From Cheilinus undulatus (taxonomy: Eukaryota > Chordata > Actinopteri > Labriformes > Labridae), in contig NC_054881.1 of NCBI RefSeq assembly GCF_018320785.1, positions 18,476,275-18,540,274 of the forward strand: a stretch of 64,000 bases of DNA. Direction: 5' to 3'. Made by a program: the position numbers and the translations under genes. This document shows positions 10,699 through 27,780 of the stretch, piece by piece; positions within the stretch are counted from its first letter, which is position 1; every line of letters starts with the position of its first letter. The notes below the pieces were generated by a model that had not been told where the DNA came from, made no database searches, and saw only the letters and a list, made by a program, of their open reading frames with translations.

Positions 10699-13231
10699 AA
10701 AAATAATGAAAAAAGAATCTCTCCCTCTCAAAATGATTTAATTTGAAACTTTATTCACATTCGATTATGATTCGATTTACTGATGATTCTTTAAAATGAA
10801 GGACGATTTGGTTTGATCCGATCCAATTTAGTTTAGTTCGATTTGATCAGATGCATATAATTGTGAAATCTATGTAACATTTTGCTTTATAAAACTCAGA
10901 AAAAATGGGGGACTCAAGATCATTTCAAAACAGGCTTAGTGTCCTTGAGTTTATTTATAAGAGACCAAATCCCAGGTCTCCAGCACATTCTGCTATTATG
11001 TTCATGAACTGAAGTCTTCATCACACACACCTGCCCAGGTGTCTCATTGTAGGAAAAATATAAAAATGAGCATTTACTGGTACATAGATTGTGGCCCTTT
11101 CTCTACTTGTAACTTTTCTGGCTTTATTAATCCTGATAATAGAAAAAACTTCAGTTTTAATTTAACTAGTTTAACAATTAAAAGGAGATTTGAATAAAGG
11201 GACAGATCTCTGTGTGTTTGCTAGAACAGGAGGATGAGTTAAAATAATATTGTAAAGAGTATAATAAACACCTTGCTACCTCATGTGCATCTACAGCTAA
11301 CTAACTCTTTTAGAAAAGTTAAAGGTCATTGCGATTGGTGACACTGAGCAAAAGCATGGCGGTACAAGCTGGGGTAACATGCTGCAGCGCTGCAGTGAGC
11401 CACTCTCTAAGATTAAAGCCGATGCATTGACCCATTCATGTAACATTTATACCAATCCAGGGCTTCACGGGCAGATGATCTTTGACATACAGATCAGTTA
11501 ACCGATTCAGATTGGTTTATCTTTACACCACTAAGTAGGATAAAACCAAAAATGATCATTTTATAGATAGACTCAGCTAGCACTGCAAAAAAGATTTACT
11601 AAAAAGAGAGAAATGTACAAACTAGCTACATCTCAACTGTTTTCATTAAGTGCACTGTTTTGTCACAACTCGTTGAAATCCATCTGGAAGTTTTTCAAAA
11701 ACCACAATGAAGGTATCGTGATTCCAGGCTGTGCAATTACATAATTGCATATATAAGGATACAGTTAATTTTGTATGAAGTAGTACTTCAAAAGTTGACA
11801 AAATACCAGCAACAGTGCCACTATTGAACTATGTAGAAGTACCTTTATTTTTCAAAACTAACATTATTCTCCACATTTTTCTTGACAATCAAGCGAGAAC
11901 ACCCATGATACCATTTATGTTTTACATCATAATTGCATTATATATAACAGAGAACATCTCAGTGTATCTCACTGGCTCATCTTGTCCCTTTCTCCTCTGA
12001 TCTAATAAACAAGTTACGTACTTTTCCTTTAGTAGTGTACACATCTTCCTTCATGTTTGTTCATTAGTTATCTGCTATGACTTCCTAGATGGTTAATTTG
12101 GTCCATTATGTGAAAGTCTGCACAGTGAGCAGCGGGAGGGACATGACAGGCATCAAGGACTAGAATGTTATGTCCCCATCAAACAGGAGTAGACCGTCTG
12201 CTATAAACACATGCCCCTGTATCAGCTGTAGTCTTCTACTTAATCTTTAAAGTTTGATTCAGGACAGAGAGCTCTGTTCAGCATCAGCTTTGGAATAGGG
12301 TAAATGTAGCTTGTTTGGACGCCACCACACTACTTAAAAAAAAAAAACAGAGCTTAGCTACTATTTTAGTAGCTAAGCTATTTGATTCAGAAAACAATGG
12401 CACTACCACTGAGCTACTGGACATGTATTAAACTACTAATGTTGCTATATGCTGTGATGTTACAGGCCAACACTCTTTATGTCACATATATCTTGTATGT
12501 AAGGGCATTTAACACCTGATCTGCCTTTATCAACCAGTAGCTTAACTGTTATACACAGTCCACAATGGAAAATGAGCCTTAGAAGCCTTTAAGGTGAATT
12601 CCACTGTGTAGGAACTGAATATTTACATAACCAGTCAACAAGAAGCAGTTTAAGGACAGAGAAGCTATCTGCAGGTTTTTTATAGCAGATACTTGACGTC
12701 ACAGAAGGAAACTCCTCGGTTTAATCAAATTAAATCATGGCTTCCTTCCATTAATCTTCTTTGTGACTGTGTAAATAGTAGTGACTGTAAAAGAGTCTGC
12801 AGCAGGTCAGCAGCGGTTTGTAGGGTGAGAGCTATTAGTGACCGGGTTTAAGTGTTGTCGTAGAAAAACTTGATGCAGGCTAGTTTCTTTTTAGCAGGTA
12901 ATCAGCCACAGATTTTTGATTATCTTTGGATTATTTTGAGGTTCTTTTTTTTTTTTACCTTGATTGAGCAGGTTAGTAAGGGAGAGACAAGAAATATGAA
13001 GAGTGAAGGACCATGCATTAAACGGAGCTGTGATTGGGTCATACCTAGTTGTGCATTAGGGACTGAATCTTCTGTGTATGGGCACCTTTATAACTGAAAT
13101 AATAGAGCATCCAATCATGTCAAATCTTGTTCAGCTGTCAAAAGATGAAAGTTTTTAATTGTGATAAATCTCAGGAAAAAAAGCAAAAAAAAAAAAAAAA
13201 ATCAACGGCTTTTCTGTTTTTTCACTTGCAG

Positions 13232-13993
13232 CACAACATCAACATCATTCATAGGGACCTGAAGGCTGAGAACGTTCTGTTCACCTGCACTGGCTGTGTG
13301 AAGGTTGGAGACTTTGGATTCAGCACGAGGGTTTCAAATCGCAACGACACCCTGGACACCTTCTGTGGCTCCCCACCGTACGCCGCCCCCGAGCTCTTCA
13401 GGGACGAGTACTACCTAGGCCCTCAGGTAGACGTATGGGCCATGGGGGTCCTGCTTTTCTTCATGGTGACTGGCACTATGCCCTTCCGTGCTGAGACCAT
13501 GGGGAAGCTACGCCGCTGCATCATTGAAGGCATCTACATCATCCCCCCCTGGGTGCCGGGCCCCTGCCAGAGGCTCATCAAAGGCATCTTGAAGCCAGTC
13601 CCTGCCGAGCGCTACGCCATTGACCAGATGCTGGGCTGTGATTGGCTCTTACCTGTGGAGTTTCCCTGGTCCTTAGTGCCTCCTGAGCCTGTGAGCCCCT
13701 TGCAGAGCTTGCTGGATCTGGATCGAGGAGATCTAGAGGAGGAGGTGGAGGAGGAGGTCAGGGGCATGATGGAGGAGCTGGGCTTCACCCCAGAGCACCT
13801 GGAGAACAATCTGGTCAAGGACAGCCGCAGCCCGCTCACTGGCGTTTATCGAATCCTGCTGCACCGGGCCCAGAAGAGGAGGGGCTGTGACACTCCCCCT
13901 GTGGTCAGAGGGATGGTCAGGGACCCCAAGAGGGAGGGGCTCCGGGCCTACAGGGGCCTCAGACACACCTCCAAATTCTGTGTGATATCATAA
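13232..13993 (+). CDS. nim1k: nim1k exon 3: catalytic and activation loops, C-lobe and C-terminal tail
   Basis: Residues 182-434, stop TAA at 13991-13993. Acceptor AG at 13230-13231. Seen in order: catalytic loop HRDLKAEN (188-195, D190), DFG (208-210), activation loop [12 protein letters not shown] (224-235) with the AMPK-family T-loop threonine T224, and the C-lobe segment ending in MPFRAET and RLIKGIL. A glutamate-rich linker follows, then the NIM1-specific C-terminal tail with [15 protein letters not shown] and the ending [14 protein letters not shown]. All catalytic residues are present, so an active kinase is expected. The tail matches the human protein (TGVYRIILHRVQ, RHTSKFC), which separates NIM1K from other AMPK relatives. 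The frame upstream of 13232 is intron. Confidence 0.96.
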
Positions 13994-16400: not shown

Positions 16401-17348
16401 TGGAGGAGGGACAGCACGTTTTTTTTTGTTACAGGGAGCAGATGACAGGCCTTAGCGCCTAACATGCAAATCTGCTGAGTTTTACACTTTTGTCAATTTC
16501 ATAACCCTCCACCCCCCCCCCACCCTGACCTCTTGGCACCCAAATTAAAAACTCTTATCTTTGCAGAAAGTGAACACACATCACAGAAACATCATGTTTT
16601 TGAACTTTTATTTTTCTTTTTCCACTTACAATCTCCAACAATTTGTTGAAATAAGTTTGTTTCCAAGATTTTTTCCATCATGATCCAAACATTATAAATC
16701 AGATCTTTTCATTCTATAAGTATCTAAATACAATTCTTTCTTTCTTAGCATTAACTTAATTTAGTCATTTCCTAAAGTGAAACCTTTAGAGAGTTGACTT
16801 TCTTTCTTTTTTTTAATTTTAGAATATATGTTTGTCATTGTTAAACTTCTAAAGTGAAACCTTTAGAGAATTAAGACAATTCTGGAAAGTGGGAAACATT
16901 TGCGCTGACTGCAACTGTTGTCATGTTGCTCAGCAAAGAAGCCATCTTTAAAAAGTCCTTTTTAAAAACGCCTCTTTCTCAGCACCGCTTCTTCTCCTGC
17001 TGCGCGTGCTTCAGGGTGCGACATTTGCTCTGTGGGGGCCACAGGACGCAGAACTCGCTTCTCCTTCCTCTCCAAACCTCATCCGCACAAAGAATGAGGG
17101 TCGATGTGTCGCTCTTGTGGCATACCTGACCTCATTCACATAAAGAATGAGAGTCATCTTGGCATGGACGGGACAAGAGGCGACGGTTCACGGGGGGCCC
17201 CTCGGGCCGGCGCCGTGCTGCCTGGACGGGAATCCTCCTCAGGAGTATCCAGGGATGAGCAGAAACAGGGTCATCCTGTTCATCAGGATGAGTATTTCCT
17301 CATAAGAAGCTTCACAGCATCAGATCAAGAGAGGAGCAGAGCCCCAGA

Positions 17349-17462
17349 TCAACGCTCAGGGAGGCTGATCTCAGGGACCCAGTCGTTCAGACGACGACTC
17401 TCCTCACAGAACACGTGCAGCTTCTCCAGAGCTGGATCCTCCCACGACCCTTCAGCTGGGTT
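17349..17462 (-). CDS. gadd45g: gadd45 gamma-like copy A, exon 3 (C-terminus)
   Basis: 114 bases including the stop (17351-17349). It encodes NPAEGSWEDPALEKLHVFC, then EESRRLNDWVPEISLPER, the GADD45 gamma-type C-terminus ending in LPE(R). The intron before it is 111 bp (17463-17573). This exon is identical to copy B exon 3. The 3' UTR and flank (to 16772) remain inside the inverted repeat and contain three stem-loops. Confidence 0.94.
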   Translation of the reverse strand, partial: NPAEGSWEDPALEKLHVFCEESRRLNDWVPEISLPER

Positions 17463-17573
17463 CTGTTCACACAAGAGAAGAGAGGCACAGTTAGGCTCGT
17501 GTTTTCTTTAAACATCTTAAGGATCTGTGAGACGATCAGATGATTAAAACGTCTGCAAGAGAGCTGAACGTAC

Positions 17574-17781
17574 CGTGATGAGGACGCAGTGAGCATCTTC
17601 GAGCTGCTCGGCCTTGTCACCAACAATCTCAGCCAGACGCTGCATGTCGCTCACTCTGACGATGCTGATGTCGTTGTCGAAGCAGAAGGACTGGATGAGG
17701 GTGAAGTGGATCTGCAGAGCGATGTCACACTCAAACTCCTCATCCATGGCCAGGACGCAGAAGGACACACTGTCCGGGTCA
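17574..17781 (-). CDS. gadd45g: gadd45 gamma-like copy A, exon 2
   Basis: 208 bases, acceptor CCACAG|TGACCC at 17781, donor ACG|GTACGT at 17574/17573. It encodes the core [19 protein letters not shown], the L7Ae-like strand-helix segment [18 protein letters not shown] and the variable acidic loop [13 protein letters not shown]. The sequence lies inside the inverted repeat shared with copy B and I find no nucleotide difference from copy B exon 2. The antisense frames over it are shadows. Confidence 0.94.
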
Positions 17782-17892
17782 CTGTGGACAAAATAAAAGA
17801 AGCACACATGAGATTTCATCCAAAGAAAATGAATCATTCTTCTCTAAACGTGTGATAAGCTGTTAAACTTAAGCAGAGAAACTCATACTTAC

Positions 17893-18035
17893 AGATTCAT
17901 CACTTTTGCGCACTCGTAGACGCCCACGGTGAGGGAGTCGTTGTCCTTAGCAGACACCAGGACCTCCTCTAGGGCTTTGCCGGTGCACTGGGCACGCTCG
18001 GTGCTTTTCTGGATCAGAACTTCCTCAAGAGTCAT
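17893..18035 (-). CDS. gadd45g: gadd45 gamma-like copy A, exon 1
   Basis: GADD45 proteins are small acidic stress and differentiation regulators with an L7Ae-like fold that bind MEKK4, PCNA, p21 and CDK1, acting in nucleus and cytoplasm. Exon 1 runs from ATG (18035-18033) to the donor CT|GTAAGT (17893/17892): 47 codons plus two bases. The N-terminus MTLEEV is the canonical GADD45 start and is followed by GKALEEVLVSA and LTVGVYECAKVMNL. Family genes usually have an intron near the GKAL segment; here that junction is continuous, giving a three-exon gene of 154 aa (human GADD45G is 159). An upstream in-frame ATG (18233) would lie above the TATA box and is rejected. The gene is transcribed leftward, head to head with copy B 7 kb away. 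The paralogue letter (ga or gb) cannot be decided from this window. Confidence 0.92.
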
Positions 18036-18139
18036 GATGAAGATGCTGAAGATAAGTCCACAAAGGGAGAGCTTTAGAGAGCTGATGAGATAGAAATCCG
18101 TAAAGGGAGCAGAGTGATGAGGCAGCTGCAGCCTCCTGC

Positions 18140-18190
18140 TTTTATACCCTTCAGCTCGTGCGGCGCAGAGAAAGCGCTGCGCTCTGATTG
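18140..18190 (-). promoter_or_regulatory. Copy A core promoter: TATA box and CCAAT box
   Basis: On the - strand a TATAAAAG motif lies at about 18139-18146 and CCAAT (ATTGG on +, 18187-18191) about 45 bases further upstream, giving a 5' UTR of roughly 75-80 bases before ATG 18035. Spacing is typical of an inducible TATA-type promoter. Confidence 0.7.
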
Positions 18191-18312
18191 GCTGAGGCTG
18201 AATGGTGTATTGGTATGATAATGCTATTGTCACAGCGTGGCTCGTGGCAGATTGATGGGGGTCATCGTGCCACGCACGCTCCCCCTCTGAGCAGCAGCAG
18301 CTTGGGCAGACA

Positions 18313-18322
18313 CTAAAAATAG
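18313..18322. promoter_or_regulatory. MEF2-type site CTAAAAATAG upstream of gadd45 copy A
   Basis: Exact match to the MEF2 consensus CTA(A/T)4TAG, about 170 bp upstream of the copy A TATA box. Binding is inferred from the motif only. Confidence 0.4.
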
Positions 18323-21249
18323 CTCAGTAAGAAAAGAAAGTTTCACCACTTCTTAGCACTTTAGTGCAAATGAATGAAAACACAGAAGTTGGTGCAAAGT
18401 GTAGGGGTGGAAAATGAACATGTAGTGCACTTTTGCATGCATTTCTAAAAGCTTTTGAACATTTACAGAAGCTTAAGCACTTTTTGGAAAAAGATCCAAC
18501 TTGTCAGAGCACCACTGGCCTTGTGATACATTTTATAACGTTTAAAAGCATTTTAAGACTTTAACACATGGAAAACTCAGTTCTGACACTTTTATTTTAA
18601 ACTTATATTGTAACTTTTTCATAACAAACTCAGAGAAAGTGTGCAGCTCCCTTCCCCCTCTCTAGCTGCAGAGAGAAAGGGCAGGTGGATGATGCCATCT
18701 GTGGACTAGAGGCTGGCCATAAAACGGCTCTATTGTGCACCAGAAGCCCTCTATTATCACGGTACCCCATACAAATGCAAATGAGCAGCGCGTGCCAGAA
18801 CGCTGTGCGTGCTGCGCAATCTGCGCCACCGGCCCATGCGTACCACGTGGCTATCAGCTGTCCTGAAAATCCTCGCTTGGTTTTTATTTATTTACTCTGG
18901 GGAGTTCAGGGGCCACACGGACTGAATTCTGCAGGAACTCTTGCAAAGTTTACTGCACTTTTGTTTGGTGTTTGTTGTGTGTGGATCCTCCCAGTGTTCT
19001 AGTCTGTGCCTGTCCTATGACAATCTTTAATAAAAACAACAGTTTCCACCACTTTTACGCAAAACAAAACGTTTACGCACAGCACCATTTGTCATGCTTT
19101 ATATTTCCATTTGCATCTCGTGCATAATTAGTGATACTAGCAAGGATTTCGGCGCACTCAACTATATCATATGTGTTTTCCTCTGAAAAAAAAAATAGCG
19201 TTGGCAGTTTGATTATTTTAGATCACTTTTACGCACAACAGAACTTTTACGCACAGCTCCATATGCCCTGCTTAATCATTCCCTTGCATTCCGTGCGTAA
19301 TTATTAATATAATCAAGGATTTAGGTTGCACTCATATAAATATTGTTTGTTTACCTCCACAGATATCTACTTTTCTAAGTTTCACTTTTACGCATGAAGA
19401 CTTTTACGCACGGTTGTTTTTCATCTGCACTACATATAAAACAGTTTCTCCCAAACTAATTGTGCTTATTTATTTTATTTTGTCTACATAATAAGTCCAC
19501 ACTCCCTGCATCAGGTCAGGCCTGCTGCCACTGCTGTGTAAAAATAAGAGGGGCTGGAGGGGAGAGGAGGTGCCGCAGACACAGGTTGGCGATGATTGAT
19601 TCAGCACTATTGTTCTGCTATGGGTAGAGCGGCAGATGGAGAACTGTCGCTATGAGGGAGGGACCCCCCTCTCCTCTCCTCTCTCCTAAACCCAGGTCAA
19701 CCCCGACCCCAGGGCGCGCCGCTCTTTTGTCTGCAAGTCTCCACATTGGCCGATCTGTTGTCTGAGTTTTGATTAAATTTGAATGGCAAAGAGACGCGCT
19801 TATGGTCTAAACTTTCACAATGAAAAGTGTTATCTGCAGACGATGGCACACTTTGAGGAGAGATAAAACTCACTGTTAGTTTGAGCTGTAAACACGTAAG
19901 AATGCTGAACCTGTGTTTTGCACAACAACAAAAAAAGTCTTATCTGCACGTTACAAATCATTTATTTATTTACACCACTTTCAGTTTCAACTCATCAGCG
20001 CATCAGCTGGCCGAGAGGCTTATCTGCGCCGATGTTTGATGTGGATCCAGCTGATAGTCACTCAAACACTGAGCTATTTTAGGAAGGATCAGCTTGCGTG
20101 GCCACAGGGCAGGCGCGTGCAAATCGATACCGACCTATTGTTGCTGAGGCACATCTGCCACACGGAGGCAACGCGCGACAGGTGCTGCTGGTCAAATCTC
20201 TTTTCTGGTGACCTGCGGCGGCGCAGTGAAGCCTTTAAACCTATTTGTAAAGATGGCTGGTGTCTGAAGCTGCAGGATAAGATGTTTAAATGTTTGTATT
20301 CTGGTGCTTTCAAGGATCATTGGATGATGCAACAAATAAAAAAAAATGGCAATCTTATATGTCACTGATTAAAGAGATGTTACATCACGTACGCTCACAT
20401 CATAACTTTTACGCACAGTTCATTCCCATATGCGTCATGATATTCTCTTCTAACTCGTACATAACTGGCAGTTTTGGCAAGAATTTTCCAAAAAAAAACT
20501 ATAGTTTATATTTTAGTTGAAATCAGTGCAGGCCTCTCAGTTTAATTTATGAAGTTTTTAGAGCTTTAAAAGACAAAACCCTCGACAGACATGGTTTCGG
20601 TTAAGGTAAACTTCTGCGCTCAGATTTAGTTTCACCTAAACGCATAAAAATCATAATCCACACAAAACCATCACGCCCAGCAGGTGCTGCCTGACTTCCT
20701 TTGTGCGCCCCTCCCTTCACCCCTCCCCTCCCCAGGGACAGATGGTATCTCCTGGTTGCTATGGAGAGTGATGCAGACAGAGAGATAAAGCATGCAGGCA
20801 TCTCCAGATGCCACGCGCCTCAAGTGAGGTCCAGCTTTACGCATGCAAAACAGCGGCGCGTGCCACTGTCTAATCAACAAAAAACACACCATGTAGTAAA
20901 ACTGCTGATGAGTTTGGAAGGTCTGACATGCGGATAGTAGAATGGCTGATGTAATAAAGTTATAAAACAGCATCAAACTGAAGAGGACCAAAGTTTTAAA
21001 GATGTGCAAAACAGCGTTTATTCTACACTTTTTATTTCACCAATCATTTTTTCAACTCTGATATGGCACATGGGATTTTAACACATTCATGTTTTATCCA
21101 AAGATCCAATCAAACCCGTTTAATTTTTCCAGAGAAGCAGAAATACTAAAGATAAGATCAACTTTATTGATTCCTCATTAGGAGACATTTGGATGCTAAG
21201 AGTGCTCACAACAGAGGGTCAGTTTAGAAGTAATAGAAAAAATAGACTT
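18323..21249. other. Spacer between gadd45 copies, left half: unique sequence, putative enhancers
   Basis: No exon recognised. Holds an octamer ATGCAAAT (18775-18782), CTATTGT Sox-type motifs (18730, 19607, 20135), the TTTTACGCA repeat and GC-rich patches near 18790-18850, 19560-19740 and 20700-20860. Little transposon sequence is visible. Confidence 0.4.
19051..19410. repeat. Degenerate tandem repeat with paired ACTTTTACGCA motifs
   Basis: Units start at 19051, 19225 and 19384 (about 174 and 159 bp apart). Each opens with ACTTTTACGCA followed 16-20 bases later by a second TTTACGCA copy; units 1 and 2 then share a TTGCATnnCGTGC(A/G)TAATTA block and CAAGGATTT. A lone related unit lies at 20405. 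It sits in the spacer between the two gadd45 promoters. Confidence 0.65.
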
Positions 21250-21359
21250 TCAAACATAAAATAAAGAAGAAAAATATTGATAATAATATAAAACAAAAAG
21301 TAATAATCTTATTTTGGACTCTATAATAACTGTAATGACATTGCATTCAAATACATGTA

Positions 21360-21772
21360 CTTTAATATGGAATTGGCCTGCCTTTTGCCACTTTAACAGC
21401 CACCATTTCTCTTGGAAGGATTTCAAAAGATTTTGGAGTGTTTCTGAGGAAATTTGTGCCTGTTCTTCCCGTAGCGCATTTATGACATCAGGCACTGATG
21501 TTGGACGAGGAGGCCTGGCTGGCAATCTCCATTCCAGTTCATCCCGAAGGTGCTAAGTGGGGTTAAAGTCAGGGCTCTGTGCAGGCCAGTCAAGTTCTTC
21601 CACACCAAACTCATCAAACCATGTCTTTATAGTCCTTGCTTTGTGCACTGAGGCACAGTCATGTTGGAATACAAAAGGGTCTTCCCCAAACTGTTGCCTC
21701 AAAGTTGGAAGCACAGCATTGACCAATGGACAAAGGGCACAAATTGACTTCATGAGTGAAAACACTGGCTAG
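21360..21772 (-). pseudogene. Tc1-type transposase, 3' fragment
   Basis: The - strand encodes the C-terminal catalytic part: LPTLRQQFGEDPFVFQHDCASVHKA (second catalytic Asp region) and WPAQSPDFNPT. A stop follows, then RDELEWRLPARPPRPTSVPD and a typical C-terminal helix segment. The N-terminal half and both inverted repeats are absent. Inactive. Confidence 0.85.
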
Positions 21773-22299
21773 ATGTTCCAGGTCAAGTATTACTCAAATA
21801 CCAGTGGATGTCCTACAGTCAAATTATCACTGAAGTTCAATTACTAGACTACTTCCTTCTAAAGATGCTAAAGCATTCAACCTGCTTTTTAAATGAACAG
21901 TTTTGAAACTTTGTTGTATTTTCATAATGCATTAGTGCAGTCCAGAATACACAGGTGTAATTCTAAAACCTAAACGAATCATTGCTCATTTAAAAAAGTT
22001 CAGACATAGTCTTAATATTTGGCCACTAAATGATCTGCCTAAATAATCTGTCTGGGTGACCTGTGCTCTGTGTTTGCTCTAGATTCAACCATGGAGACTC
22101 ATAGCGCACAGGTATGGCTACACCAACTACACACAGAACAACATGAGCACAGGATGTTATCTTAAAGGTCTGATTTTAGAAAAGAGAAGAAAGGGAGTGA
22201 AAGGAAAATATTTATCTTGCAAATGTAGGTGAGTAAAGGTGAAAAAAATGACCCCCAAATAATGCTCTACTAAGGCACAGACACTGAAAAATTGATTAA

Positions 22300-22518
22300 C
22301 CCTTCATAGCCAGTTGTGTCATATTTGATACACAGTTTTATGAGATCTTAATCTAATCAACATAATAATAATAGTAATAATAATAATAATAATATCATGA
22401 TATCATAACATGATCCAAAATTCCCTTTAAAACCTTTTGTTTACAACCTGATAAATGATAAAAATGCCCTTCAGTGAATTATCACTAGCCAAAAACACCT
22501 TGTGTTTAAAAATCAATA

Positions 22519-22559
<41 letters not shown>

Positions 22560-22645
22560 TGTGAAATGTTGTGGCATTTTTTCTTTTTATGGACTTTGTT
22601 CTAAGGTTAAATAAACATCTCATTGAAAAAAGAATTTTCTGGCTT
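22300..22645 (+). mobile_element. piggyBac-type MITE, truncated copy
   Basis: Starts at TTAA (22296-22299) then CCCTTCATAGCCAGTTGTGTC. It shares order and text with 52466-52769 (ATTTGATACA, GATAAATGATAAAAATGC, AAATAAACAT). A (CT)n(AT)n microsatellite has expanded inside it, and its right end is replaced by the L2 fragment. Confidence 0.6.
22518..22558. repeat. (CT)n(AT)n microsatellite
   Basis: A run of CT dinucleotides passing straight into AT dinucleotides. Confidence 0.9.
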
Positions 22646-22649
22646 TTAT

Positions 22650-23960
22650 TTGAGGTCTCAGACTATACCTGTACCTGTGTACTCTATCTGTGATGTACAG
22701 CAAGGTTCAGTTTTAGGTCAGATTTTATTTCCTATTACCTGCTGCCCGATGACCAAATCATTGAGAATCACAGAGTGTCCTTTCACTGCTACGCAGATGA
22801 CACACAGATATACCTGGCTCGTAAGACCTGAGGACCCTAGAAGCCTAGCTGTTGTAAAAGACTGTCTGCATGATATCAACTGCTGAATGGTTCAATAACT
22901 CAAAATCAGAAATACTTTCAAACTCTCAAAACTCCACCCTGTAAAGCCACATTATGTAATAATGCTGCATTATATAATAACCCTAACCATAGGACTTAGT
23001 GTGGCTCCAAGGTATGCCCTACCCAACTACCTTGCCCTAACTCTAACTGCTTAGTGACTCATGCCTAAACCTAACCCCCCTTCAGGGCTCTAGACTAAAC
23101 ACCTACCCTACTAACCCTAACCGCTTAGTGGCTTAGAAAATGCGGCGTTATTACATGATGGATGGAAAATGCATTACATTATTACATAATGCAGCATTAT
23201 TACATAATGCGGCGCTACACACCCACCTCATACAGTCTAGTCTCTGTGCTGTCTCAGAAAACATCAGACCCACGGCCAGAAATCTTAGAATAGTATTTGA
23301 TTCAGACCTCACATTCTCAAGGCATGGTTGTTGTTCAGTCCTGCTTTTTTTCAAATCAGAACCATTACCAAAATTAAAACAGTACTCACTCAGTCAGACC
23401 TGAAAAAAACCATCCATGCCTTCATATTCTCCAGACTCGATTACTGTAACTCTCTTCTCTCTGGCATCACTCAAAAACCCCTCTCTCGATTACAGCTAGT
23501 CCAGAACGCAGCAGCGAGGCTTCTAACTGGTTTTAACAGACGACATCCCATCAGTACCATTTTAGCATCCGTACACTGGCTCCCTGTAAGTTCTAGAATT
23601 GATTTCAAGATTTTACTCATTACTTTGGCTCTGCGCTACTTAATAGAACTTTTGGCCCCTTATGAGCCAGGCCGCAGCCTTAGATCTTTGGGCGGGGGCC
23701 TCCTGGTCATTCCAAAGTTGAGACTTAAGACTAAAGGTGACAGGGCCTTTTCCATCAGGGCCCCTTGACTTTAGAACAGCCTGCATACAGATCAATCACC
23801 TCCTTTAAATCACTTTTTAAGACTCAATTTTATAGACTTGCTTTTATGTTCATCTTAAAGCTTCTATGTCTACACTGTTCTGTATTTTATGCCTTGATTT
23901 GATTCTTATTGTGCTTTTAATCTTCTTAATTGAGTTTTATTTACTATTATTATTACCTTA
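22650..23960 (+). pseudogene. L2-type LINE, 3' reverse-transcriptase fragment
   Basis: Frames carry QQGSVLG and, near 22780, SFHCYADDTQIYL (the YADD polymerase motif). At 23390-23768 come the typical L2 C-terminal blocks AFIFSRLDYCNSLLSG, LQLVQNAAARLL, ASVHWLPV and GDRAFSIRAP. Frameshifts and a 270 bp insertion break it. The 5' part is missing. Confidence 0.85.
22945..23215. mobile_element. MITE with CATTATGTAATAATGC ends, inserted in the L2
   Basis: The left end CACATTATGTAATAATGCTGC and the right end (reverse complement GCATTATGTAATAATGCTGC) form long inverted repeats. The middle contains several CCCTAACC/CCTAACC telomere-like repeats. It separates the YADD part of the L2 from its C-terminal part. 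Confidence 0.6.
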
Positions 23961-23984
23961 TGGTTTCTCCCTTTTTATTGTTGT

Positions 23985-24310
23985 ACTCAGGTGTGGACAA
24001 AAGTAATTGGCCACACCTGTTAATTATTGAATTCAGGTGATTCAATCAGACCTGTTGCCACCAGTGTATAAAATAAAGCACCTAGCCATACAGTCTCCAT
24101 TTTCAAACATTTTTGATGTGTTGTTCTGAGGAGCTCAGCAACTTCAAGCATGCTACTGTGATGGATGCCATCTGCAAAAAGACAGTTCATGAAATTTAAT
24201 TTCTGCAGGTTACATCACAGTCAACTGTAAGTGATATTATTAGAAAGTGGAAGCGTTTAGGAACAACAGCAACTCAGCCACAAAGTGGAGTATGTATTGG
24301 TAGCAGTTCC
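23985..24310 (+). mobile_element. Tc1-type element, 5' fragment
   Basis: Reads TTGGCCACACCTGTTAATTA, then GTGTATAAAATAAAGCACCTAGCC and a decayed N-terminal transposase with helix-turn-helix text (CACAGTCAACTGTAAGTGATATTA; AAGTGGAAGCG). Same lineage as 57285-58030. No catalytic part. Confidence 0.75.
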
Positions 24311-24740
24311 TGGTTTTGCACATTTAAAATAATTATGGAAATCAGTGGCTGAAGATTGTGTTAATTCTTACACTAAAGATCTACAGCATGCTTTGTAAAA
24401 TGTTTCACCATGATGAGTCCTGTAGATCGAAACATGAAGGACCCCCTGTATGGTCCTCATTTAAATTAGAGTCAGTCCTTGCTCCTAATTCATCCAGAAC
24501 TTTGAGGACTTTGACGACAGCAGTCTGCTCTTCCTGTGTGGTTCCTTTATGCCTTTAAGTTGAAAGAATCATTTAAAGGTCAGAGAGTTTCTACATCTGA
24601 TCCTTTCAACCAAAGCTGCCCCCGACTCTCTAAGACTTTCTATAGGCACGCGTCCCAGAGGGTGGGGCAGGGGCTGCAGGCCTGTTGTTTCCATTGTGGC
24701 CCCGACAGCGAATCAGAGGGTGAGCGTGTGCCGGCTCTGT

Positions 24741-24750
24741 GGTATAAAAG
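24741..24750 (+). promoter_or_regulatory. Copy B TATA box
   Basis: GGTATAAAAG, 84-93 bp upstream of ATG 24834. Within the preceding 100 bp are a GC-rich GGTGGGGCAGGGGC stretch and CCATTGTGG. The promoter shows no obvious similarity to that of copy A. Confidence 0.65.
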
Positions 24751-24833
24751 CCAACAGAATCTTCAAGGCAGCACAAACACTTGTCTCTGGACTTTCTGAC
24801 CACATCGACTGAACTGTTAGCTGAAGCATTATC

Positions 24834-24934
24834 ATGCAGTCTCCTGGAAAATCTCTGAAGGAAGCCCTGCTCTGTGCTCAGAGCGAGGATCGACTCACTG
24901 TTGGAGTCTACGAGAGCGCCAAAATCATGACTGA
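24834..24934 (+). CDS. gadd45g: gadd45 gamma-like copy B, exon 1 (short N-terminus)
   Basis: ATG at 24834, the first in-frame Met after TGA 24822-24824; donor GA|GTAAGT at 24934/24935. It encodes 33 codons plus two bases, beginning MQSPGKSLKEALLCAQ and including LTVGVYESAKIM. The usual MTLEE segment is missing, so the predicted protein is 140 aa against 154 for copy A. It aligns to copy A only from the GKAL region, at roughly half identity, whereas exons 2 and 3 are identical. The short N-terminus could be a real loss of the first coding segment, or an upstream coding exon may exist; a TATAAAA at 24743-24749 favours the short form with a 5' UTR of about 60 bases. Transcribed rightward. Confidence 0.88.
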
Positions 24935-25041
24935 GTAAGTAAAGTTTAAGGGATTTAAAAGTAAAGTTGCATCTGGACTTTGAGATCCTCCTTGAAAATT
25001 TAACATGCAGCTAACAGTCGGTGGTTTTTCTTTGTCCACAG

Positions 25042-25249
25042 TGACCCGGACAGTGTGTCCTTCTGTGTCCTGGCCATGGATGAGGAGTTTGAGTGTGACA
25101 TCGCTCTGCAGATCCACTTCACCCTCATCCAGTCCTTCTGCTTCGACAACGACATCAGCATCGTCAGAGTGAGCGACATGCAGCGTCTGGCTGAGATTGT
25201 TGGTGACAAGGCCGAGCAGCTCGAAGATGCTCACTGCGTCCTCATCACG
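25042..25249 (+). CDS. gadd45g: gadd45 gamma-like copy B, exon 2
   Basis: 208 bases, acceptor CCACAG at 25036-25041, donor ACG|GTATGT. Joined to exon 1 it reads [18 protein letters not shown], against NLDPDSV in copy A. The core L7Ae-like fold residues are the same as in copy A. The block of identity with copy A starts about 11 bases upstream of this exon, close to the splice acceptor. Confidence 0.94.
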
Positions 25250-25360
25250 GTATGTTCAGCTCTCTTGCAGACGTTTTAATCATCTGATCACCTCACAGAT
25301 CTTTAAGATGTTTAAAGAAAACACGAGCCTAACTATGCCTCTCTTCTCTTGTGTGAACAG

Positions 25361-25474
25361 AACCCAGCTGAAGGGTCATGGGAGGATCCAGCTCTGGAGA
25401 AGCTGCACGTGTTCTGTGAGGAGAGTCGTCGTCTGAACGACTGGGTCCCTGAGATCAGCCTCCCTGAGCGTTGA
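25361..25474 (+). CDS. gadd45g: gadd45 gamma-like copy B, exon 3 (C-terminus)
   Basis: 37 codons plus TGA at 25472-25474, identical to copy A exon 3 and ending NDWVPEISLPER. Intron 2 (25250-25360) is 111 bp, the same length as in copy A, but I count five differences from it, all transitions. The 3' flank stays paired with copy A to 26048. The nearest good poly(A) signal is AATAAA at 26301-26306, outside the shared block. Confidence 0.94.
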   Translation, partial: NPAEGSWEDPALEKLHVFCEESRRLNDWVPEISLPER

Positions 25475-25531
25475 TCTGGGGCTCTGCTCCTCTCTTGATC
25501 TGATGCTGTGAAGCTTCTTATGAGGAAATAC

Positions 25532-25552
25532 TCATCCTGATGAACAGGATGA
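25532..25552 (+). ncRNA. 3' UTR stem-loop 1 of gadd45 copy B
   Basis: Perfect 8-bp stem TCATCCTG / CAGGATGA with a 5-nt loop ATGAA, 58 bases after the stop codon. The same hairpin is in copy A (17271-17291). A cis-acting mRNA element is an inference. Confidence 0.5.
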
Positions 25553-25671
25553 CCCTGTTTCTGCTCATCCCTGGATACTCCTGAGGAGGATTCCCGTCCA
25601 GGCAGCACGGCGCCGGCCCGAGGGGCCCCCTGTGAACCGTCGCCTCTTGTCCCGTCCATGCCAAGATGACT

Positions 25672-25746
25672 CTCATTCTTTATGTGAATGAGGTCAGGTA
25701 TGCCACAAGAGCGACACATCGACCCTCATTCTTTGTGCGGATGAGG
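25672..25746 (+). ncRNA. Pair of related 3' UTR stem-loops in gadd45 copy B
   Basis: Hairpin 2 (25672-25692) has stem CTCATTC / GAATGAG and loop TTTATGT. Hairpin 3 (25724-25746) has an 8-bp stem CCTCATTC / GGATGAGG with one T-G wobble and loop TTTGTGC. Both share a 7-nt TTTRTGY loop, so this looks like a duplicated element. Hairpin 2 in copy A is at 17131-17151. Function unknown; a post-transcriptional role is inferred. Confidence 0.5.
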
Positions 25747-26048
25747 TTTGGAGAGGAAGGAGAAGCGAGTTCTGCGTCCTGTGGCCCCCACAGAGCAAAT
25801 GTCGCACCCTGAAGCACGCGCAGCAGGAGAAGAAGCGGTGCTGAGAAAGAGGCGTTTTTAAAAAGGACTTTTTAAAGATGGCTTCTTTGCTGAGCAACAT
25901 GACAACAGTTGCAGTCAGCGCAAATGTTTCCCACTTTCCAGAATTGTCTTAATTCTCTAAAGGTTTCACTTTAGAAGTTTAACAATGACAAACATATATT
26001 CTAAAATTTAAAAAAAAGAAAGTCAACTCTCTAAAGGTTTCACTTTAG

Positions 26049-27780
26049 CTGACAAAAATATTAACTTAAAAGTATCAGAAAAATTGTATCTAAAGGTTTC
26101 TCTAGATTTATAACATCTAAGGAAAAAATGTCTGAAAAAGTGTTCACAGGATCACAAATGTCTGACTTTTATTTTTGTAATGGAAAATTGTGAAGAAAAA
26201 GTACTTAACTGAACATTACTTTCATGAATGCCATTCATGCCAGCAACTTGTTAATTGCTATTCTTGTTTTGTTTTTGTTTTTTAAATATAGACAATTAGA
26301 AATAAAATATTTGAATTCACATTTGTCTTCTGACTCCATTTTAACTCTTTTCACCTGAATGTAAAGCTGTCTACAGTGACATGAGTCAGCTGTCTGGCTG
26401 ACTCCTCTGTTTCCTGAGCTCATTTTTTTGGGACTTTTAAAATTTTGTCAAGATTTTGAAGATCAGTCTTATCTGAAAACCTGTAGTAAGTCAGTGTCTT
26501 TAAGCAACAGCAAACAGTTATTTTAGCTGTTGACCTCTGTGCATTAAAATTCATCAGGTCAGCTCTAAGGAGACTTTGAAACAGCAACTTCAAAGACTAC
26601 TTTCACTCAGATGCTGAAAATGAAGTTTTTGGCATGTAAACAGGATCCAGTTGAAAAGTTTTTATCCATGGCTCAGGAAAATGTTTAGTACATGGTGAAA
26701 TTTGAAGTAGAGGTCTGATCTGGGCAGATTTACACATGTGCCATATGATGATGGATTTACCTGAACATTACTAGTAGAAGTCTGTTTTCACGTTGATGTT
26801 AAAGAGGTTTATTGTTGGTCAAATAAGTTAAATTATATTGACCAGCATTGATTTATAAAATCAATAAAAGGGTATGGGTGTTAATGTATCCTGGAACTTG
26901 TAAGAATTATATAAACTTGGGGGGAAAAATTCAACTCTGTAGGAGTTGATGTTAATGTAACACTGATGATTTTGTTGTCTAAAGTAACATCAGTTAGGGT
27001 TAAGAAGCATCTTTTTTTTTTACCCATATAACCACTGTGAATGTCTAAGTATTAACTCTTGACAGTCTTAGTCTGACTACACAGATTTTGCTATGCAGCT
27101 GGATTGTTAATCTCACTGTTTATTTGGCTGAACAAGGTTGATTTTCCACCTACTCAACTGTGTATATTTGCAGGGGCTTCAAAATAAATCTCAAATTAGT
27201 CATTATATATATTATAACATTTTGCCATTAACACATTTGAAGTCTAAAGCCACTTCAAGAAAAAAAATGCTTTCTCACTCTGCTTGTGTACATTTGACAT
27301 GCGTGCATATGACACTCAAGCAGCCCTTACAGTAAAGAATGTTATGGTTGATAAAGAAAAGCTTGATTTGGTTGGCTTCACAAGAAACAAATAGCTACAA
27401 ACAGCTTTAGCTAAAGGTAATACTAGTCCAAAAATTACAGTCTGTATTATTATCACAATCTTCACAATCGTTCTTTTTTTTTAAATTGCAAAATAGATCA
27501 AGGATAAAAAAAGACATTGCAGCTACACTTTACCCCAATATTGCTAGTCCTTCATGCATGCAAACAGCTTGGTTGAATATCTGCTGTCCTAAAGCTACAT
27601 GCTAAGCCTGGCACATACTTCATGTTTCTAAAAATCTTAACCAGTTTCATAAATGTCAGAGACCCCACACATGACACCAAACATTCACACATCAATAGTT
27701 CTATTTTTATAGAGTGTGATGTCTCCACCCTCAAAACTTAAATCTCACATGTGGCTAGTTGTTAGCTACCTGCTACAGAG
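26049..27780. other. Flank of gadd45 copy B, no gene recognised
   Basis: AT-rich unique sequence. Poly(A) signal AATAAA at 26301-26306 fits the end of copy B. No further exon or repeat family seen. Confidence 0.35.

Follow-up and report, generated by a model that had tools for sequence, protein, structure and literature searches.

A head-to-head pair of gadd45 gamma-like genes with near-identical 3′ parts and diverged first exons in Cheilinus undulatus

Two GADD45-gamma-like genes face each other head-to-head in the stretch of Cheilinus undulatus DNA analysed here (the window; 64,000 nucleotides, C17:18476275-18540274, in a genome of 1.17 Gb and 46 contigs). Gene A lies on the minus strand and encodes 154 amino acids; gene B lies on the plus strand and encodes 140. 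Between the two genes, synonymous divergence falls from dS 1.19 in exon 1 (dN 0.29) to dS 0.031 in exons 2-3 (dN 0), with the step at the edge of intron 1 and exon 2 (Fisher test on synonymous sites, p = 9e-9). The pair therefore shows an abrupt step in neutral-site divergence inside homologous genes, as interlocus conversion requires. The step is seen directly in the alignment, and conversion is the process we infer from it. An old duplication followed by recent interlocus gene conversion is the best-fitting explanation and very probably the correct one. Both genes are probably in use, and a single core would be joined to two different promoters and N-termini. A preliminary description of this DNA had proposed an old duplication homogenised by conversion, and the step bears this out.

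Gene models and genomic setting

Both genes have intact reading frames and splice sites, and exon 1 of each ends in the same phase. The coding part of exon 1 of gene A occupies 17893..18035 (MTLEEV..., 47 codons and 2 bases), followed on the minus strand by exon 2 at 17574..17781 and the coding part of exon 3 at 17349..17462. The corresponding parts of gene B are found on the plus strand at 24834..24934, 25042..25249 and 25361..25474. The L7Ae/L30e/S12e/Gadd45 domain (PF01248) is above its cut-off in both proteins, at 1.1e-9 for A (with a query that carried one wrong residue) and 1.6e-8 for B. The closest solved relative of each is GADD45 gamma: the best structure for A is 2wal at 198 bits, compared to 163 for GADD45 alpha (again with one wrong residue in the query), and the best for B is 3cg6 at 191 bits, compared to 149 for GADD45 alpha. 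No GADD45 beta chain appears among the solved-structure matches of A and B. Gene models, domain and structures thus agree with the head-to-head gadd45 gamma-like pair first described. Proteins of the GADD45 gamma type bind MTK1/MEKK4 and activate p38, an activity that is predicted for A and B.

The two genes begin differently. In the gadd45g gene on C5, the first coding exon (MTLEE...) is separated from the next by an intron. Comparison with that gene reveals that exon 1 of A consists of the first two C5 coding exons fused, and A thus lacks the first intron of C5 gadd45g. The start methionine of B aligns inside the second coding exon of other GADD45 genes, and when the six frames of the window were scanned for an MTLEE-like start for B, the sole instance was that of A. 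Clusters of the UGT1 or protocadherin type place variable first exons on a single constant region; such an arrangement is ruled out here, as A and B each own exons 2-3.

When the genome was searched at the protein level, at least 14 exon matches were found among the best candidates scored, and they were read as seven genes. There are thus at least seven GADD45 genes: A, B, one each on C5, C13 and C18, and two on C7. A genome search with PF01248 (11 matches) missed the GADD45 genes, in that L001-L019 contained no match to A by tblastn at E 0.01. Searches for counterparts in other species returned 134 pattern stretches in genome contigs and 19 in viral contigs, with none confirmed in either set.

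The nearest paralogue of the pair is C5 gadd45g. The locus is placed by a neighbouring open frame at 13106..13993 (plus strand), which carries a kinase domain and resembles an exon of NIM1K. We take this kinase to be NIM1K, a name that fits the gene list of the guppy interval discussed below. A Pfam scan of eight further frames in the window found a kinase in two and no family in six. The closest paralogue of the window kinase (62%) lies about 16 kb from C5 gadd45g; the kinase paralogues that come next, on C7 and C13, lie at a distance from the GADD45 genes of those contigs. With the nearest gadd45g and the nearest kinase paralogue in one neighbourhood on C5, the blocks on C5 and C17 have the appearance of an anciently duplicated region. 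C5 gadd45g and its kinase neighbour have the same orientation, as do B and the kinase in the window, and A is the inverted gene. In guppy, an ancient duplicated region on LG9 and LG12 was reported by Dor et al. (PMC6829149).

The 6.8 kb between the two start codons (18036..24833) contain diverged promoters and inserted repeats. One repeat, at 22940-23219, has 41-nt inverted ends and is 89-94% identical to copies on many contigs. It is nested in an older spacer repeat (22668-23849) that is 74-83% identical to its copies (best 40 of 6869 candidates). The sequence TTTTACGCA occurs six times at 19053-20415, between the genes and always on the plus strand, with 0.30 occurrences expected in the whole window; a regulatory or a repeat origin of these copies is possible.

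The homogenised tract and its edges

The homogenised tract comprises the last 11 bp of intron 1 and everything up to roughly 574 bp beyond the stop codon, at 16772..17792 in the A arm (minus strand) and 25031..26048 in the B arm (plus strand). The inverted arms match over 992 nt at 99% (16807-17798 and 25025-26016), and a gapped alignment extends them to 16772 and 26048. They are the longest of six inverted pairs of at least 60 nt found in the window. The tract core contains eight differences in 969 bases (99.2% identity), all of them transitions: one in exon 2, five in intron 2 (106/111 identical), one in the coding part of exon 3 and one in the 3′UTR. Outside this core lie a difference at the A-rich end (16814/26009), indels at the same end and two intron 1 differences upstream of the edge. 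The extent and the roughly 99% identity given in the preliminary description are thereby confirmed. Its statement that exons 2-3 are free of differences holds for the protein but not for the DNA, where two synonymous differences occur (17757/25066 and 17445/25378). When the genome was searched with the A arm, the best-scored candidates included eight matches, a lower bound: the two full-length arms and six exons of other GADD45 genes.

Several features accompany the outer part of the tract. At 16811-16816, A contains a polyadenylation-type hexamer, ATTAAA, which is absent in B through the difference at 16814/26009; the first such hexamer in B is at 26301, and for this reason the 3′UTRs of A and B may end differently. 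The tract 3′UTR (25475-26048) folds as RNA more stably than any of 100 shuffled versions (z -4.52), and a search of the whole window with Rfam found no family at gathering score. The 20-mer CTCTAAAGGTTTCACTTTAG, which can form a small hairpin, occurs four times in the window, twice at each arm end (16772-16868 and 25955-26048), and was not found elsewhere in the window with up to three mismatches. It was considered as a boundary signal of the tract, but the arm-end repeats yield no mechanism.

Similarity is largely lost on either side of the tract. The introns 1 of A and B align no better than expected by chance (74 of 300 shuffles score as well). In the promoters, which had been described as unrelated by eye, only short borderline matches are found: over 600 bp, a 16-bp match whose positions do not correspond (13/300 shuffles as good), and over 250 bp, an 11-bp TATA stretch (18/300). 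Both promoters contain a TATA box (111 bp before the ATG in A, 91 bp in B) and AATCAGAG farther upstream. A TATA box is likewise present in the C5 gene. Beyond the outer edge, where faint similarity had been taken as the trace of an older and longer duplication, a weak resemblance is confined to the first 60 bp (7/300 shuffles as good). This lends the longer duplication weak support there, but none beyond chance is left over 200 bp (88/300) or past 60 bp (166/300).

Origin of the pair

Trees and distances were computed from all seven genes, using an exon 1 block of 30 codons (90 nt) and an exon 2 block of 49 codons; the remaining coding sequence was left out because gene lengths differ, and the clades tested were named after the block distances had been seen. 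In the exon 2 block, A and B share 49/49 residues and each shares 40/49 with C5. In the exon 1 block, A and C5 share 23/30 residues, and B shares 17/30 with A, with C5 and with L035, a C7 gene. The protein leaves the descent of B exon 1 unsettled because it is equally near to these three; in DNA, the nearest row to B is A, at 68%. Conversion had been expected to separate the trees of exon 1 and exons 2-3. The comparison used paralogues from this genome, with a single block for each part. In the exon 2 tree A groups with B (98/96), and a grouping of A with C5 is rejected (AU p = 0.0245); the exon 1 tree unites A and B weakly (66/86) and rejects neither order (A with C5, AU p = 0.31). Exon 1 thus shows an old A/B split, without its order.

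The strongest alternative is a single recent partial event, in which a 3′ fragment of A of about 1 kb was inserted downstream of a first exon that was older or evolving fast, so that B would be a chimaera. Such an event would account for DNA similarity that is limited to the 3′ part, with intron 1 and the promoters unalignable apart from short borderline matches, and for B having no MTLEE start like that of A and C5. We nevertheless consider it unlikely. The first exons are identical at 67 of 96 bases in their aligned stretch, which none of 300 shuffles equalled, and they end in the same splice phase. Exon 1 homology between A and B is real. Exon 1 of B is a GADD45 exon in its own right, and B must therefore have been a gadd45 gene in this part already. 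At the protein level 18 of 32 residues are identical over the aligned part, in keeping with the earlier estimate of about one half, and A has 14 further N-terminal residues. The reported presence of the same layout in Poecilia (PMC6829149) also argues against a chimaera, as does the uneven divergence of the tract, which is unlike one copying.

This unevenness is observed directly. At sites that are likely neutral, 7 of 178 differ in the synonymous sites of exons 2-3 and intron 2, compared to 1 of 525 in the 3′UTR core (p = 4e-4) or 2 of 542 when the A-rich end is included (p = 0.001), a division of the tract that was chosen after the data had been seen. With synonymous sites alone, 2 of 67 differ compared to 1 of 525 (p = 0.035). 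The pattern suggests more than one conversion event, although it could arise partly from constraint on the 3′UTR in this lineage.

An assembly artefact, with one arm duplicated from the other or mistakenly polished to match it, is very unlikely. The core carries eight differences, five of them of CpG type, the flanks and first exons are distinct, and the window contains no N. According to the available text of PMC6829149, the same pair was found on a P. formosa scaffold and in guppy reads, with guppy RNA reads for both forms; the two cases are not fully independent, because the guppy reads were assembled onto the P. formosa scaffold.

That strong purifying selection alone has kept exons 2-3 and the 3′UTR identical since the old duplication is scarcely credible: the exon 2 protein is indeed conserved across the family, but synonymous sites and intron 2 (5/111 differ) are near-identical as well, the exon 2 blocks of the pair have dS of 0.65 and 0.74 against C5, and the tract 3′UTR resembles nothing at the C5 locus (best E 0.069), so that its identity between A and B is not deep constraint.

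Under old duplication and recent conversion, a teleost GADD45-gamma gene would have been duplicated locally and inverted long ago, at an age comparable to the split from the C5 paralogue. Ectopic recombination between the opposed arms, with one arm as template, would then have copied about 1 kb (the end of intron 1, exons 2-3 and the 3′UTR) from one gene onto the other. Repeated copying is probable, with the latest event in the 3′UTR. Promoters, first exons and intron 1 would meanwhile have diverged freely, and the outcome would be two promoters and two N-termini with one shared GADD45 core. All five core differences of CpG type keep the CpG in A (p = 0.06), and at seven of the eight core differences the base in A is G or C (p = 0.07), which is weakly suggestive of A as the likelier donor. 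With substitution rates assumed to lie between 1e-9 and 5e-9 per site per year, mean tract divergence would correspond to about 0.8 to 4 million years, an estimate that is not relied on here.

Published counterparts and implications

This arrangement of genes has been published before, for guppy and Poecilia formosa. On guppy LG12 and in P. formosa, Dor et al. (2019) described a GADD45G-like pair placed head-to-head about 4 kb apart, with three exons in each gene, exons 2-3 identical and exon 1 different in size and sequence (PMC6829149). The encoded proteins have 151 and 137 residues, and the longer form was expressed about 15-fold more, with no definite sex bias (PMC6829149). The wrasse-family pair (Labridae) is alike in its orientation, shared exons 2-3, different exon 1, 14-residue difference in length and NIM1K in the interval. 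It differs in its proteins, of 154 and 140 residues, and in its spacer, which at 6.8 kb contains inserted repeats; the nested and other repeats may explain the greater length. In the available text, both P. formosa copies fall within 6 kb of scaffold, compared to 9.3 kb in this window (PMC6829149), and the guppy assembly is given as 732 Mb (PMC5199103), compared to 1.17 Gb here. Both proteins are three residues longer than in Poecilia, a common shift that would be expected of a part evolving in concert and that agrees with a grouping of the converted segment by species. The shared part thus seems to have changed alike in both copies; this comparison is of unaligned lengths from one paper (PMC6829149).

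In the available text of Dor et al., the identity of exons 2-3 is not explained by conversion between the copies (PMC6829149), and the gene conversion discussed in the accessible parts of that paper and of PMC7534449 concerns sex-chromosome recombination. Among the matches listed for fish gadd45 duplication and conversion, as far as their text was available, the pair is nowhere presented as a conversion case.

Similar tracts are known from other gene families. The Drosophila hsp70 genes include an inverted pair. From the accessible text, hsp70 paralogues in Drosophila are homogenised by conversion in their transcribed part and differ in their flanks (PMC2871787), as here, and the same holds for adjacent inverted paralogues in nematodes, the hsp16-1/hsp16-48 modules and hsp70-7/8, whose conversion tracts can cover an incomplete reading frame and reach into introns (PMC3966223). 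Ectopic recombination between opposed arms is described in these sources as a known origin of such tracts (PMC3966223, PMC2871787). The heat-shock genes belong to other families, and in the gadd45g pair the edge at intron 1 and exon 2 leaves two different N-termini. In fish, conversion has been proposed for the poeciliid LWS opsins, likewise paralogues in opposed orientation but tail-to-tail and of another family, in the part of that report available (PMC3087554).

Published guppy RNA (PMC6829149) implies that both genes are probably used, and it fits two promoters and N-termini acting on one effector domain. It is possible, though doubtful, that the split design has been kept at least in this lineage and in Poecilia by selection, with repeated conversion holding one core and 3′UTR together, two promoters and long and short N-termini apart, and the edge of the tract in a fixed place where intron 1 meets exon 2. 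GADD45G is needed for male sex determination in mouse (cited in PMC6829149), and the counterpart region in guppy was proposed as sex-determining (PMC6829149), which the available text of later papers disputes (PMC7534449, PMC7643365). Should the two copies indeed evolve in concert, the locus would yield misleading gene trees, SNP calls and short-read expression counts, because most exon 2-3 reads cannot be assigned to A or B. The pair would also offer a clean natural case of conversion stopping inside a gene.
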